From NCBI GenBank assembly GCA_030431635.1, contig JAUIIL010000005.1, forward strand, positions 62,001 to 126,000: DNA of 64,000 bases, written 5' to 3'. A program made the translations under genes and the position numbers. Under the pieces are notes generated by a model, which saw only the letters and a list, made by a program, of their open reading frames with translations, was not told the origin of the DNA and made no database searches. Position 1 is the first letter of the stretch, and each line of letters starts with the position of its first letter. Source of the DNA: Bacteriovoracia bacterium (lineage in GTDB: Bacteria > Bdellovibrionota > Bacteriovoracia > Bacteriovoracales > Bacteriovoracaceae). Positions 1 to 60,746 of this stretch are shown here, in pieces.

Positions 1-1355
1 TCAAAAGCGAAATGCTTTTGCATCAAGGGTCTAAATGCTCTTTTGACAACAGGGTCCTCCGTGGCCACCATCAATAGCATTTTAAATCCAGTGTTAAACG
101 CGTTAGAAAATTTTTCTTTGTTTTTAATTTTAAGTTTGGGGGCTACTTCTTCTTCCATGATTCTTTGTAAATTCATCATTAATTTAAATGCTCTAGAAAA
201 ATCTGAGTTTTTATATGCTTCTGTCCATAATGTAACCGCTTTTTCCGACAAATCTTTTTCAAGATCAATCAGATCGTCCAATAGTTGATTAAGTGCACCC
301 CATTTGTAAAAAAATTCAATTTCTTCATCTGTAAGCTTTCCCATGCCAACATAGGCAAATAAAACACCTGTCAGACCACCTTTCGTAAAGGTAGTTTCCA
401 AAATCTCTTTTTCAGTAACGTTCTTAATTGCTTTTTGTAATTGAGAACTTTTAACTTGAATATAAAGAAGTTTTTTTAATAAATGAGTAACAATCGGATC
501 CTTTTGAGGAGGATATTCTTTTAAAAGATTTCCCGCTAAATAAAAACTAATCGCTTCAAATTCGTTTGAAGGATTTTGAATCTCTCCAGCTAGAATTTTT
601 TTCGATTTTTCAATCATTTGTCTAACTTGATCGTCCATTCCACTGTCGAAAGCACTATCAGTAATAGGGTGAAGAAGAGAAATCGCATCAATTGCTTTTA
701 AAGTTCCTCTATTTGTCGCTTCTTTTTCCGCCAACAATCCAAACGCATTTATTGCAAAATAATTGAATCCTCCCATCTTAATGGCCTTATCATTTAGAAA
801 CTTACTTCCAAAATTCTCTTGCATCCAATTAACTCTTTCGAAATAACTCTCCATATACTTATCAACTTTCATAATTTGCATATCTTGAATACCTGAGAGC
901 TTCATTGAACGATTTGCTGATTTTATACTTTTCTCAACATTCTTCTTAATAGCATCCTGAACTCTTGTTCCCTTATAAACATCCTCTCTAACACTTTCTA
1001 CAATTTCTTCATAAACATGCCATATGGTTTTGTTTGAGTTTGGTTGTATATTACGTTCTATTTCCTCTACTTTTTCTAAAATAAGTTTTCCTGAAACAGC
1101 CAATTTGTTTTCATTACCAAGCCTTTGAAAAAGATTAAACGTTTTACTCATCGAAGGAGGCATGAACTTATGTGGCACGGAAGCTGACTCTTGCAAGTAT
1201 TTTCCATTCCAATTTAAAATAGCTTCATCTAAAAAAGGTATATTGTGGTGAAAATTATAATTACTCTTAAGATTTTTATTACACTTTTCTTCCGCTGAAA
1301 GGAGATTCAAACACAGAAAGCTCTGAATAAGCAGAAATACTAGTTTTTTCAGCAT
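1..1355 (-). CDS. secreted protein with isoprenoid-synthase-like Asp motifs (3' partial)
   Basis: I read this open frame directly from the minus strand. It starts at ATG 1355 and stays open for 451 codons to the window edge, so the C-terminus is missing. The first ~21 residues form a signal peptide (hydrophobic, ending LLSA before EEKC). The rest is predicted helical. Two Asp-rich sites stand out: D233-x3-D237 in LHPITDSAFD, and a perfect DDxxD at 360-364 in LLDDLIDLEKD. Paired acidic motifs of this kind hold the diphosphate-bound magnesium in class I isoprenoid synthases, and the second is close to the pattern in the DUF2600 (tetraprenyl-beta-curcumene synthase) family. A secretion signal on such an enzyme would be odd, because prenyl diphosphates are cytoplasmic. 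The family call is tentative; the reading frame is certain. Confidence 0.6.
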   Translation of the reverse strand, partial: MLKKLVFLLIQSFLCLNLLSAEEKCNKNLKSNYNFHHNIPFLDEAILNWNGKYLQESASVPHKFMPPSMSKTFNLFQRLGNENKLAVSGKLILEKVEEIERNIQPNSNKTIWHVYEEIVESVREDVYKGTRVQDAIKKNVEKSIKSANRSMKLSGIQDMQIMKVDKYMESYFERVNWMQENFGSKFLNDKAIKMGGFNYFAINAFGLLAEKEATNRGTLKAIDAISLLHPITDSAFDSGMDDQVRQMIEKSKKILAGEIQNPSNEFEAISFYLAGNLLKEYPPQKDPIVTHLLKKLLYIQVKSSQLQKAIKNVTEKEILETTFTKGGLTGVLFAYVGMGKLTDEEIEFFYKWGALNQLLDDLIDLEKDLSEKAVTLWTEAYKNSDFSRAFKLMMNLQRIMEEEVAPKLKIKNKEKFSNAFNTGFKMLLMVATEDPVVKRAFRPLMQKHFAF

Positions 1356-1449
1356 GGAACCTTTAAATCACGAATAACGCACAGGGCAAATAATCGATGA
1401 AAAAATGTAAATTTTACCTCGAGATATAAGAGATAACGTTTTTTAGGCA

Positions 1450-2065
1450 AAAAAAAGCCCGGATATTTATCCGGGCCAGTTTTTCTGTTTTTGATGTTCT
1501 GCCTTACGTTCCTCTAGAGAGTATTCACCCTTTAGATTTTGTTTCAAGCTCAATAATCCTTGCGGATTACTTTACTCAAAAACAGACCTCTTAACCTTTA
1601 AAAAGCACTTGGCTTTTTTGAGATGTACCCGTTTTTCAACTTCCCTATCTCAGGTCAAGACGCCAAAAAGCTTTTACCCTCAACTCTTGCAAGTTTCACC
1701 TTGCTTGACTCTCGTTCGAAGCTAGCTTTCACTTTACTTCTGCTCTCTGACCTTACGTAAATGGCGAACATTTACGCGTTTGAAACTAGTTTTTCCCTTG
1801 CGGGCTGAAGTGTACCAGTTTTGCAACTTCCCTACTTCATTCTAATTCCACCTAAAGCTTTTATCCCAAGACAAAATCGCATTTCACCGCTTTTTTGTTC
1901 TCGTTAAGATTTGAACCCAGTGAATTCAAATCAGCTTCAGTCATTTGGTAGATACCTACCATGAGAGCCTGTCCTCTTTCTCGTTACCTCGAATTTGTCC
2001 CTACTCTCACTTTTGCTTTTTTCAAAACTTGTTTTGCCAAAAGCTCAACTTCAGTTGCCTAAAGT
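1450..2065 (-). ncRNA. candidate large structured RNA with tandem domains
   Basis: This stretch has no credible ORF, but it has a well-spaced promoter at its right end and an intrinsic terminator at its left, giving a predicted transcript of about 615 nt read leftwards. It contains two related domains, 1905-1807 and 1716-1620. In each, AACGAG is followed by a hairpin with a GTGAAA-containing loop, then AAAAGCTTT, then exactly 15 nt, then a 32-nt hairpin (1838-1807 and 1651-1620). The two hairpins share AGGGAAGTTG, AAAAC and GGTAC. They are capped by GNRA loops (GCAA, GAAA). Their outer stems differ by two compensatory pair changes (A-U to G-C and G-C to A-U). Other perfect hairpins include GATTTGAA/TTCAAATC, CGTAAATG/CATTTACG, TAATCC-GCAA-GGATTA and CCC-GCAA-GGG. 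I do not recognise RNase P, tmRNA, 6S, SRP or GEMM signatures. Function unknown. Confidence 0.7.
1457..1476 (-). terminator. intrinsic terminator of the candidate RNA
   Basis: An 8-bp perfect stem, GCCCGGAT/ATCCGGGC, with a 4-nt loop. On the minus strand it is followed by a run of T residues (TTTTTTTTGCC). An interrupted T-tract lies on the other side too, so it could also stop rightward transcription. It marks the 3' end of the 1450-2065 transcript and separates it from the gene starting at 1355. Confidence 0.9.
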
Positions 2066-2071
2066 GATACA

Positions 2072-2100
2072 TTTATAGAACTGACTTGTTTTATTGTAAA
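2072..2100 (-). promoter_or_regulatory. sigma-70-type promoter for the candidate RNA
   Basis: On the minus strand TTTACA (2100-2095) is followed after exactly 17 nt by TATAAA (2077-2072). The expected start is near A2065. It lies just beyond the hemW stop, and no Shine-Dalgarno/ATG pair follows, which fits a non-coding transcript. Confidence 0.75.
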
Positions 2101-2131: not shown

Positions 2132-3232
2132 TTAGATGATTTTTTGACTAAAAATTTCATCGAAAAGTCCGTCTAGGACGATATAACCTTTTGCGGTTAG
2201 TCTTAACTGGCCATGAGAAATTTCAGCAACACCTCGACTTACCCAAGTTTGAAAAAACTCTTGAGACTCAGAGGAAAAATGCTCTAAAGCAATCCCTGAA
2301 GATGTTCTTAAAGACAAATACATTGCCTCTAGCTTCATCTCTTCTTTGCCTAAAATTTCTATTTGAAAATCCTCTTTTTGAGTTTGCCATTTATACCTTA
2401 AAGCTTTCTCTGGTGAAAGAGAAAGAAATCCTGTCGATGAAGGACCGATGGCCCCAAAAGAGCGCCCTTGCCAATAGACATAATTATTTCTTGAATGAAA
2501 GTTTTCAAGAGAGAAGTTAGAAACTTCATAATGATTAAACCCATGAGAAGTTAAAAAATCAGAAACCTTTAAATACTCATCATGTGAATAGTCTTCGCTA
2601 GGAAGTTTTTGATAGTGAAGATAGTGTTTAGGGACAGTCAAAACATAAAGACTGATATGCTTAGGATTAAACTCTAAAAGTCTCTCTAGTTCTTTAACAA
2701 TATCTCTTTTTTTCTCTTGAGAGTAAGGAAGACTTAATAAAAAATCACAAGAAAAATTCTCATGATGATTTGCTAAAATTTCGAGCGATCTTAAAGAATC
2801 CTCTAAGTCATGGGCCCTATCGCTTATAGACAGAAAATAGGGGTCGAGAGATTGGAGTCCTACCGAAAAGCGATTAACTCCTATATTTTTCCAAAGTCTA
2901 TACTCGTTTTCATTCCAAGTTCCAGGATCGATTTCAAGTGTGAACTCATAGCTCTTATCAAAAGAGAGTTCGCTAAAAATAAATTTTTCTAAAAACTTAA
3001 CACCTTCCTCTGACCATAAAGATGGCGTTCCCCCGCCCATATAAAAAGTTTTTAAAGGTGACCATTTAAATGAGTTTTCTTTCATGAGCTCTGAATGCTT
3101 TCTCCATGAAGTCAGATAAAAATCATTCAGGGACTGAAAATCTCTACCTTTTAGTTCTTTTTTGAAAAAGTCACAATAGTTACAAAGATGTTTGCAATAA
3201 GGAAAATGCCAATAAAGAGAAGTTAAATTCAT
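2132..3232 (-). CDS. hemW: radical SAM protein HemW-like (heme chaperone)
   Basis: A 366-residue cytoplasmic radical SAM protein of the HemN/HemW family. The [4Fe-4S] site is C13-x3-C17-x2-C20 in HFPYCKHLCNYCDFF, followed by the SAM-binding GGGTPS and the family segment NRFSVGLQSL. It lacks the N-terminal extension of true oxygen-independent coproporphyrinogen oxidase (HemN), so HemW, a heme-binding and heme-transferring chaperone, is the better call. The C-terminal part is the winged-helix-like HemW tail. It is divergent from the M16 peptidase gene with 74 nt between the starts. The promoter of the candidate RNA lies just past its stop. Confidence 0.88.
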   Translation of the reverse strand: MNLTSLYWHFPYCKHLCNYCDFFKKELKGRDFQSLNDFYLTSWRKHSELMKENSFKWSPLKTFYMGGGTPSLWSEEGVKFLEKFIFSELSFDKSYEFTLEIDPGTWNENEYRLWKNIGVNRFSVGLQSLDPYFLSISDRAHDLEDSLRSLEILANHHENFSCDFLLSLPYSQEKKRDIVKELERLLEFNPKHISLYVLTVPKHYLHYQKLPSEDYSHDEYLKVSDFLTSHGFNHYEVSNFSLENFHSRNNYVYWQGRSFGAIGPSSTGFLSLSPEKALRYKWQTQKEDFQIEILGKEEMKLEAMYLSLRTSSGIALEHFSSESQEFFQTWVSRGVAEISHGQLRLTAKGYIVLDGLFDEIFSQKII

Positions 3233-58425: not shown

Positions 58426-58502
58426 TGGCGGGCGCAGAGGGACTCGAACCCCCAACCTACTGATTTGGAATCAGCCGCTCTACCGATTAGAGCTATACAC
58501 CC
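58426..58502 (-). tRNA. trpT: tRNA-Trp (anticodon CCA)
   Basis: 77 nt including an encoded CCA end. Acceptor GGGTGTA/TGCGCCC with two G-U pairs and discriminator G, D-arm GCTC/GAGC, anticodon arm GCTGA-TTCCAAA-TCAGT giving CCA, and a T-arm with TTCGAGT. It follows tuf after a terminator, as tRNA-Trp usually does, but secE is not next: the accessory block intervenes. Confidence 0.96.
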
Positions 58503-58513
58503 GCTTGATCAAA

Positions 58514-58536
58514 AAAGCCCCGACTTGCGGGGCTTT
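58514..58536 (-). terminator. strong hairpin between tuf and tRNA-Trp
   Basis: 9-bp stem AAAGCCCCG/CGGGGCTTT with a 5-nt loop, followed on the minus strand by six T residues. It ends 11 nt before the tRNA 5' end, leaving no room for a separate promoter. Either it is only partly effective, or it serves as a processing signal for the tRNA. Confidence 0.85.
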
Positions 58537-58556
58537 CGTATTTTAAAGATGAGAAA

Positions 58557-59747
58557 TTATTCTACAACTTCAGTTACAGTTCCTGCACCAATAGTTCTAC
58601 CACCTTCACGAATCGCGAAACGTAGACCTTTCTCCATTGCAATTGGAGTAATAAGCTCAGCAAGGAAAGAAGTGTTATCTCCTGGCATAATCATTTCAAC
58701 ACCATCATTAAGAGTAACTGCTCCAGTCACGTCAGTAGTTCTGAAGTAAAATTGAGGTCTATAACCTTTAAAGATTGGAGTGTGTCTTCCACCTTCTTCT
58801 TTAGTAAGAATATAAACTTCACACTTAAATTTCTTATGTGGCTTAACACTACCTGGCTTAATAAGACACTGTCCACGCTCAACGTCGTCTCTTTTTGTCC
58901 CTCTAAGAAGGATACCCACGTTGTCACCAGCTCTACCTTCATCAAGTAGCTTTCTGAACATTTCAACACCAGTAACAGTTGTTTTTTGAGCATCTCTGAT
59001 TCCGATAATCTCAATTTCTTCACCAACTTTAACGATCCCTCTTTCAACACGTCCAGTAACAACTGTACCACGTCCAGAAATAGAGAAAACGTCTTCAACT
59101 GGCATAAGAAAATCTAGATCAATCGCTCTTTCTGGAGTTGGAATATATTCATCAACTTTTTCCATAAGCTCAAGAATCTTAGCTTTACCAATAGCTTCGT
59201 CTCTGTTTTCAACAGCGGCAAGAGCTGAACCAGCAACGATAGGAATATCGTCTCCTGGGAAATCATAAGAAGAAAGAAGTTCTCTTACTTCCATTTCAAC
59301 AAGCTCAAGAAGTTCTTCATCATCAACTTGGTCAACTTTATTAAGGAAAACAACGATAGCTGGAACACCAACCTGACGAGCAAGAAGGATATGCTCTCTA
59401 GTTTGTGGCATCGGGCCATCAGCGGCAGAAACAACAAGAATAGCTCCATCCATTTGTGCAGCACCAGTGATCATGTTTTTAACATAGTCAGCGTGTCCTG
59501 GACAATCAACGTGAGCATAGTGACGATTAGCCGTCTTATATTCAACGTGAGAAGTGTTAATTGTAATCCCACGAGCTTTTTCTTCTGGAGCGTTATCAAT
59601 GTCAGCGTAGTTTTTCGCGTCCCCACCGAATTTCTCAGTAAGAGTCATTGTGATAGCTGCAGTTAAAGTAGTCTTACCATGGTCAACGTGACCGATTGTA
59701 CCGATGTTTACGTGATCTAAACTTCGATCAAATTTTTCCTTTGCCAT
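58557..59747 (-). CDS. tuf: translation elongation factor Tu
   Basis: 396 residues. P-loop GHVDHGKTT (residues ~19-27), switch [13 protein letters not shown]3 DCPGHADY, G4 NKVD. Delivers aminoacyl-tRNA to the ribosome. It follows tRNA-Thr, as in the thrT-tufB unit of many proteobacteria, and is not part of the str operon at 32 kb. No second tuf occurs in the window. Confidence 0.98.
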
Positions 59748-59884
59748 TTCTTTTCTCCTAAAAAATACTTATCGTTTTTTGAAACTCAAAGAGTATCTAA
59801 TTTATAACACTAACTGACAAGATGCTTATAAGGGAAATATCTATCTCCTCCAGGGCCCCTCGTCAACGAAAAATCGCAAAAATA

Positions 59885-59959
<75 letters not shown>

Positions 59960-59971
59960 CTTGTTTCTCCC

Positions 59972-60412
59972 CTATTTAAACTTTAACCCTGAAGTTTGCG
60001 CGCAAGCAAAAACCACTTTCTCGTCTTCTGTGCTCAAGAACTCGATTTCTTTATTGTGCACACCGCCTTCGAAAAGGCCTTTCTTGGCGAACAGATCAAT
60101 ATACTCAGCCTTAAGAGTTTTTTTCTCTACAACTATCGATTGTACTAAATCTCCAGAATCAGAAAAAGAAATCAATGCTCCCCATTTTTTATTTCCTAAT
60201 GAACAACTCGTAGAGTTTATTGTGTAAACTTTTTTTCTTGGCTTAAAAAGATACCATTCACCCAAATGACAAACCCCAAGAGACTTTATCATTTTTGATT
60301 TTTTCAACTCTCCGTCTTTATAAGTTTGTTTTTCGAAATAGCACTTGATTGGATAAGCTGCATGAGCCGACATAAGCGTGCTCGCCACCAGTAAAAATGC
60401 CAAAAACTTCAT
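59972..60412 (-). CDS. small secreted protein inside the tRNA-tuf operon
   Basis: The start is ATG 60,412, preceded by GGGAGAG at a suitable distance; a longer frame would run into the tRNA-Gly gene. The 146-residue product has a signal peptide (LAFLLVASTLMSAHA) and four Cys (PIKCYF, LGVCHL, STSCSL, VFACAQ), likely two disulfides. No known family. It sits between glyT and thrT, where nothing but spacer is usual, so it should be transcribed at the very high level of the tRNA operon unless processed away. Confidence 0.75.
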   Translation of the reverse strand: MKFLAFLLVASTLMSAHAAYPIKCYFEKQTYKDGELKKSKMIKSLGVCHLGEWYLFKPRKKVYTINSTSCSLGNKKWGALISFSDSGDLVQSIVVEKKTLKAEYIDLFAKKGLFEGGVHNKEIEFLSTEDEKVVFACAQTSGLKFK

Positions 60413-60444
60413 TCTTCTCTCCCTCTTAAAAATTTTTGTGAAAA

Positions 60445-60520
60445 TGGAGCGGGCAATGAGGCTCGAACTCACGACCCCCAGCTTGGAAGGCTGGTGCTCT
60501 ACCAACTGAGCTATACCCGC
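60445..60520 (-). tRNA. glyT: tRNA-Gly (anticodon TCC)
   Basis: 76 nt with CCA. Acceptor GCGGGTA/TGCCCGC with one G-U pair, anticodon arm CCAGC-CTTCCAA-GCTGG giving TCC, T-loop TTCGAGC. Follows tRNA-Tyr. Confidence 0.96.
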
Positions 60521-60573
60521 TTGACTTAGAAATGTATCGTAACTAAACCACCATCAAACATCAAGCTTAAAAG

Positions 60574-60659
60574 TGGTGGCGCGGGGTGGATTCGAACCAC
60601 CGAAGGTATACACCGGCAGATTTACAGTCTGCTCCCTTTAGCCACTCGGGAACCACGCC
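60574..60659 (-). tRNA. tyrU: tRNA-Tyr (anticodon GTA)
   Basis: 86 nt, class II with a long variable arm. Acceptor GGCGTGG/CCGCGCC, discriminator A, anticodon loop CTGTAAA giving GTA, T-loop TTCGAAT, encoded CCA. Confidence 0.96.
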
Positions 60660-60670
60660 TTGGAGTAAAA

Positions 60671-60746
60671 TGGAGCTGGCTATAGGATTCGAACCTACGA
60701 CCGGCAGTTTACAAAACTGCTGCTCTACCAACTGAGCTAAGCCAGC
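60671..60746 (-). tRNA. thrU: tRNA-Thr (anticodon TGT)
   Basis: 76 nt with CCA. Acceptor GCTGGCT/AGCCAGC with discriminator T, anticodon arm GCAGT-TTTGTAA-ACTGC giving TGT, T-loop TTCGAAT. First gene of the tRNA-tuf unit. Confidence 0.96.

Follow-up and report, generated by a model that had tools for sequence, protein, structure and literature searches.

The window analysed here, meaning the whole stretch of DNA under study, covers 64,000 nucleotides of a contig from a Bacteriovoracia bacterium. Near its left end, a HemW-like radical SAM gene and an orphan gene for a 591-aa protein lie on the same strand and enclose a region in which no open reading frame of at least 50 aa was found between 1356 and 2131. 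This region carries a promoter-like site, two copies of a folded domain with a repeated hairpin (H), folded flanking parts and an intrinsic terminator. The features are listed in upstream to downstream order.

2132..3232, minus strand: HemW-like radical SAM gene, upstream (Pfam Radical_SAM, 4.5e-20)
2072..2100, minus strand: promoter-like TTTACA-17-TATAAA, 10/12 consensus matches
1947..2068, minus strand: 5' region D0, fold z=-4.3, 0/500 shuffles
1940-1781, minus strand: domain copy D1, MFE fold with helix probabilities 0.76-0.99, z=-4.2
1852..1862, minus strand: copy 1 of the AAAAGCTTT word plus two following bases, of which GCTTTAG forms the 3' strand of helix Pa
1838-1807, minus strand: hairpin H copy 1, GAAGT-AGGGA-AGTT-GCAA-AACT-GGTAC-ACTTC
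1752..1780, minus strand: linker hairpin GCGTAAATG/CATTTACGT between D1 and D2, z=-3.7
1751-1589, minus strand: domain copy D2, with the same level-5 shape as D1 and matched by a model built on D1 only
1651-1620, minus strand: hairpin H copy 2, GAGAT-AGGGA-AGTT-GAAA-AACG-GGTAC-ATCTC
1482..1588, minus strand: 3' domain D3, z=-4.8, 0/500 shuffles
1449..1477, minus strand: strong intrinsic terminator GCCCGGAT-AAAT-ATCCGGGC followed by a T run
1..1355 (running off the window; L238:6580-8355), minus strand: 591-aa orphan gene, downstream

A transcript from the promoter-like site to the terminator would be ~610 nt long. The initial promoter scan accepted only -10 elements that end in T and therefore did not list TTTACA-17-TATAAA. 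If this site is used, transcription is expected to start near 2066-2063. We infer that both H copies lie on one transcript because one promoter-like site and one terminator flank them. The scan found no terminator between the HemW-like gene and the RNA, and therefore read-through from hemW is possible. The RNA is apparently stand-alone, or else derived from the hemW 3'-UTR.

Repeated hairpin and duplicated domains

The initial annotation had described a 32-nt hairpin with a GNRA cap, present twice in the same transcript and carrying an identical internal loop. Both copies fit its formula on the minus strand, and the AGGGA/GGTAC loop is the same in both. The R and Y positions of the outer stem form two full compensatory pairs (A-U to G-C and G-C to A-U). 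The inner stem is shorter by one pair in copy 2 (3 bp, against 4 bp in copy 1), where the A facing the K position meets a G and gives an A-G mismatch. When the 24-nt core was searched with up to 3 mismatches, the only matches in the window were the two H copies, both with 0 mismatches (0.16 expected). A core descriptor containing the GNRA loop likewise matched only these two copies in the organism's own 3.3-Mb genome.

The similarity extends beyond the hairpin. The ungapped repeat around H covers 61 nt at 72% identity, with its copies 187 nt apart. The top ungapped self-match score of the region was 27, as compared with 11.9 +/- 1.5 (maximum 17) in 200 shuffles. At the level of sequence, the duplication is larger than the H hairpins, which are its best-conserved part.

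D1 and D2 fold independently to one architecture, two consecutive three-way junctions. D1 consists of the junction Pa-P1-P2 (1940-1852), 1 nt and the junction Pb-H-P4 (1850-1781), and D2 of Pa-P1-P2 (1751-1662), a 1-nt linker and Pb-H-P4 (1660-1589). The sizes agree as well (89+1+70 nt in D1, 90+1+72 nt in D2). The abstract shape [[][]][[][]] was obtained in 7/3000 shuffles of D1 and 14/3000 of D2 (at most 0.5%). In both domains the P2 hairpin loop is GUGAAA and the connector back to Pa is GGRUAAA. Among 26 corresponding pairs, counted in a common register that covers Pa, distal P2, Pb and H, nine are compensatory, five half-changed, 11 unchanged and one broken; most of these helices were picked from the folds of D1 and D2 themselves, which favours agreement, while H lies within the ungapped alignment and needs no fold-based helix choice. 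A covariance model built on D1 only matched nothing in the 64-kb window besides D1 and D2 (35 bits, E=1.1e-6 for D2). This model places the Pa of D2 on a competing pairing of AAAGCT (1729-1724) with AGCTTT, which is also favoured by models R2 and R3.

It had also been noted that the AAAAGCTTT word precedes H at a fixed distance of 15 nt, and this spacing had been taken to suggest a larger tertiary unit. The distance from the end of AAAAGCTTT to the start of H is indeed 15 nt in both copies. The larger unit stands in so far as H sits in a duplicated, covarying domain of ~160 nt, but AAAAGCTTT does not stand as a separate tertiary signal. In copy 1, GCTTTAG pairs with CTGAAGC (1940-1934) in helix Pa; the corresponding partner strand in copy 2 is AGAGAGC. 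In the predicted fold, AAAAGCTTT is better explained as the last connector bases together with most of the Pa 3' strand. The constant 15 nt is similarly better explained by the model as what is left of Pa, followed by the connector to Pb and the 5' strand of that helix. The role as a helix strand in Pa accounts for AAAAGCTTT better than recognition of the word from afar would.

Flanking parts and fold of the whole RNA

The 5' region D0 contains two hairpins, a stem in which GGACAGG faces a third TAGGGA, and the hairpin GGTAG-GTAT-CTACC. This third TAGGGA lies beside GAGAG and opposite GGACAGGCTCTC, within 2068-1947 on the minus strand. By eye, D0 could be a third, degenerate copy of the module; models R2 and R3 did not recognise it as one (at most 4 bits). 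The closing helix of the 3' domain D3 is a perfect 11-bp inverted repeat, TCTGTTTTTGA/TCAAAAACAGA (1484-1494 and 1576-1586), with a probability of 0.5-0.7. It encloses two hairpins, of which one (1571-1552) has a GCAA cap. The TCTGTTTTTGA/TCAAAAACAGA repeat sits just upstream of the terminator.

The fold of the whole RNA gave z=-7.8 with the terminator and -7.5 without it. The 200-nt tile 1401-1600 on the minus strand, which includes the terminator, showed the top energy gain among the 640 tiles of the 64-kb window. GNRA loops cap seven of the 15 hairpins in the RNA, as compared with 0.42 +/- 0.63 (maximum 3) in 80 shuffles, and among the 640 tiles just two hold a pair of GNRA loops, both of them inside the RNA. 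Taken with the predicted fold, this GNRA excess is what one would expect if the RNA had tertiary structure.

Distribution and genomic setting

All families of Rfam 15 were searched with cmscan, at gathering and at E<=5, and no family matched the RNA. RNase P, tmRNA and 6S RNA were each found elsewhere in the same genome, and the RNA was therefore rejected as any of these three. Covariance model R3 found no relative in 129 family genomes or in the other 367 of 368 phylum genomes. Covariance model R1 gave best outside matches of E 0.02-0.04 in the 129 family genomes, which on inspection were without the AGGGA/GGTAC core. The search sets for "order" and "class" are the same 129 genomes as those for "family". 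The GNRA core descriptor matched, in the 368 phylum genomes, the two H copies and two unrelated sites elsewhere. Exact and gapped DNA patterns, the form of search applied to 84,980 species genomes, revealed no relative. The 23 gapped-pattern matches were rejected; they were scattered across unrelated organisms and their folds were without the module. In the pattern search of viral contigs, the outer and inner stem occurred together in none among the matches listed. No match to phages or plasmids was obtained with blastn. The blastn matches in relatives were short and scattered (E>=1e-5) and were rejected as homologs.

The initial annotation would have counted absence of the module from related loci against it, and in descriptor and model searches no related genome was found to carry it. 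Between-species conservation cannot be shown because no homolog was found. The absence from relatives shows what appears to be lineage restriction and does not speak against structure, since for structure the two paralogous copies can be compared with each other. These two diverged copies serve as an internal comparison in which covariation defines the fold without a homolog in other species.

In most of the inspected loci of relatives, hemW is followed after roughly 80-150 nt by a grpE-sized gene, and often by dnaK too. In this genome, the RNA and the 591-aa gene separate hemW from grpE-dnaK-dnaJ, and the two look like a lineage-specific insertion, on searches that cover about half of the known species and that diverged RNAs escape. 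On its other side, hemW adjoins a divergent M16-peptidase-like gene (M16 named from its sequence), and this pair is kept in relatives. No tRNA gene was found in 11 kb around the RNA. A cluster of five tRNA genes lies at 58429-60746 of the window, on the minus strand.

The 591-aa gene starts ~94 nt past the terminator, on the same strand as the RNA. By eye, its protein has a signal-peptide-like start and a hydrophobic C-terminus. The protein has no significant Pfam or NCBIfam match, no relative in the 129 family genomes, phages, plasmids or viral contigs, and only weak, partial matches to PADLOC. Structure prediction from the single sequence, over 451 of its residues, gave a model too poor to use (pLDDT 37).

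Candidate readings of the RNA

The duplication, the common fold with its covariation, the GNRA excess, the terminator and the lack of a long open reading frame were obtained by computation. From the sequence and the fold models, we consider that the locus probably encodes a structured, duplicated non-coding RNA of ~610 nt. It is a real and unusual structured RNA candidate by its sequence, and its kind, the large structured bacterial RNA, is already known. To our knowledge, bacteria have few large structured RNAs, and for most of them no function is known.

How such an RNA might work can be outlined as follows. A domain of ~160 nt would have been duplicated internally in tandem to give a large RNA. 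Each domain, built of two three-way junctions, would display one GNRA-capped hairpin with the invariant AGGGA/GGTAC loop, and many GNRA contacts would fold the RNA into a compact particle. In the model, the invariance of the internal loop points at a functional site, and the loop is plausibly a recognition site, as the initial annotation had suggested. It may be a protein-binding site in each copy, or the receptor or anchor of a tertiary contact. With two copies of the loop, the RNA would act as a two-site scaffold, perhaps of a ribonucleoprotein. We put this mechanism forward tentatively, at somewhat below an even chance. The duplicated loop eases the design of mutation tests. A broader proposal is rather doubtful: that the duplication of a double three-way junction gave rise to a large ornate bacterial RNA of a new class, which would form a ribonucleoprotein or an RNA-only oligomer, perhaps with the adjacent orphan secreted or membrane protein, RNA and gene being an accessory pair inserted between hemW and grpE.

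Several large RNAs offer comparisons for this structured, duplicated RNA. OLE RNA is ~600 nt long and forms a membrane-associated ribonucleoprotein. ROOL and GOLLD are located in phages or prophages, often beside tRNA genes, and all three RNAs form homo-oligomeric particles. The RNA described here is similar to OLE in its length of ~600 nt, its elaborate secondary structure and the membrane-type protein gene next door. However, it has no Rfam match at E<=5, it occurs in another phylum and its neighbour protein matches no Pfam family. Like ROOL and GOLLD, it is large and ornate, with many motifs of the kinds usual in tertiary contacts; unlike them, it has no Rfam match, it contains two homologous domains within one chain, and its neighbours are hemW, grpE, dnaK and dnaJ rather than tRNAs or phage genes. 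None of the OLE, ROOL, GOLLD and raiA covariance models matched (cmscan, Rfam 15). By analogy, the RNA resembles these ornate RNAs and may work alike, but it belongs to none of OLE, ROOL or GOLLD. ROOL and GOLLD are ornate phage or prophage RNAs that form RNA-only cages (PMC12286853).

Precedents are found in Bdellovibrio bacteriovorus, in which merRNA (445 nt) and APsRNA6 (655 nt) are abundant stand-alone RNAs reported to be restricted to a single lineage; merRNA holds a c-di-GMP riboswitch, and no ORF is conserved downstream of it (PMC3627812). The present RNA is similar to merRNA and the attack-phase sRNAs in being long and, apparently, stand-alone and lineage-confined. It differs from merRNA in that a c-di-GMP riboswitch would match Rfam and no match was obtained here. 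Should it be expressed, the RNA would count as ornate and lineage-specific, in what we take to be a phylum that appears to have other lineage-specific abundant RNAs (PMC3627812).

Among the alternatives, a cis-acting leader survives best, although we consider it improbable. In this reading, a riboswitch-like tandem-aptamer element regulates the 591-aa gene through termination or antitermination. The RNA and the gene have the same orientation, a strong intrinsic terminator follows tandem homologous domains ahead of the gene, and relatives are without both. Tandem riboswitches such as that for glycine likewise place two consecutive, homologous aptamer-like domains ahead of a terminator. However, the domains here are ~160 nt long, contain no known aptamer and are followed by no convincing expression platform. 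When the 3' arm of the terminator was omitted, no strong antiterminator formed; the best alternative partner reached ~0.36 over six bases, and three bases pair with the extreme 5' end at 0.7-0.8. In addition, ~610 nt is long for such an element, and no Rfam riboswitch matched.

It is very unlikely that the region is coding, even though two small ORFs lie near D1 and D2.

1962-1861, minus strand: 33-codon ORF, with AGAGGA 9 nt upstream
1771-1655, minus strand: 38-codon ORF

Both begin with M-x-x-I-Y and start at corresponding places, ~20 nt ahead of the two domains. However, BLASTP shows no similarity between the two peptides, and nearly all of the best-conserved 61 nt fall past the stop of the first ORF. 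The spacing from GTGAAA to GGRTAAA is 15 nt in D1 and 14 nt in D2, and therefore the frame is not kept. The two ORFs are probably due to chance.

A large RNA inserted in one lineage between hemW and grpE could also be the remnant of a mobile element, namely a group II intron, a retron or a ROOL/GOLLD-like phage RNA. This is highly unlikely, as no such family matches in Rfam even at E<=5, the neighbouring genes within 11 kb include no reverse transcriptase as judged by their products, the surrounding 11 kb contains no tRNA, and no match was found in phages, plasmids or viral contigs. Domain V of group II introns is a 34-nt GNRA hairpin. H was rejected as a domain V on the lack of an Rfam match and of an evident reverse transcriptase in 11 kb.

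A cassette like a type III toxin-antitoxin system, in which a repeated RNA antitoxin and a terminator precede a gene whose product the RNA neutralises, is extremely unlikely. The order of repeats, terminator and gene fits, and the RNA and gene form a lineage-specific island. Type III antitoxin RNAs have several near-identical copies of tens of nucleotides before the toxin gene, but the repeat unit here is ~187 nt long, in two diverged copies (72% over 61 nt). The protein, at 591 aa and with its signal-peptide-like start, has no significant Pfam match, including to a ToxN-like endoribonuclease, and PADLOC yields nothing beyond weak, partial matches.

Sponge RNAs use repeated GGA hairpins, and GGA is present in both conserved loops, but titration of CsrA/RsmA by the repeated GGGA loops is hardly credible, since the RNA has 9 GGA where its composition predicts 13.9 +/- 3.0, and 5 ANGGA where 5.1 are predicted, with no enrichment, and the two conserved GGGA lie in internal, not apical, loops.
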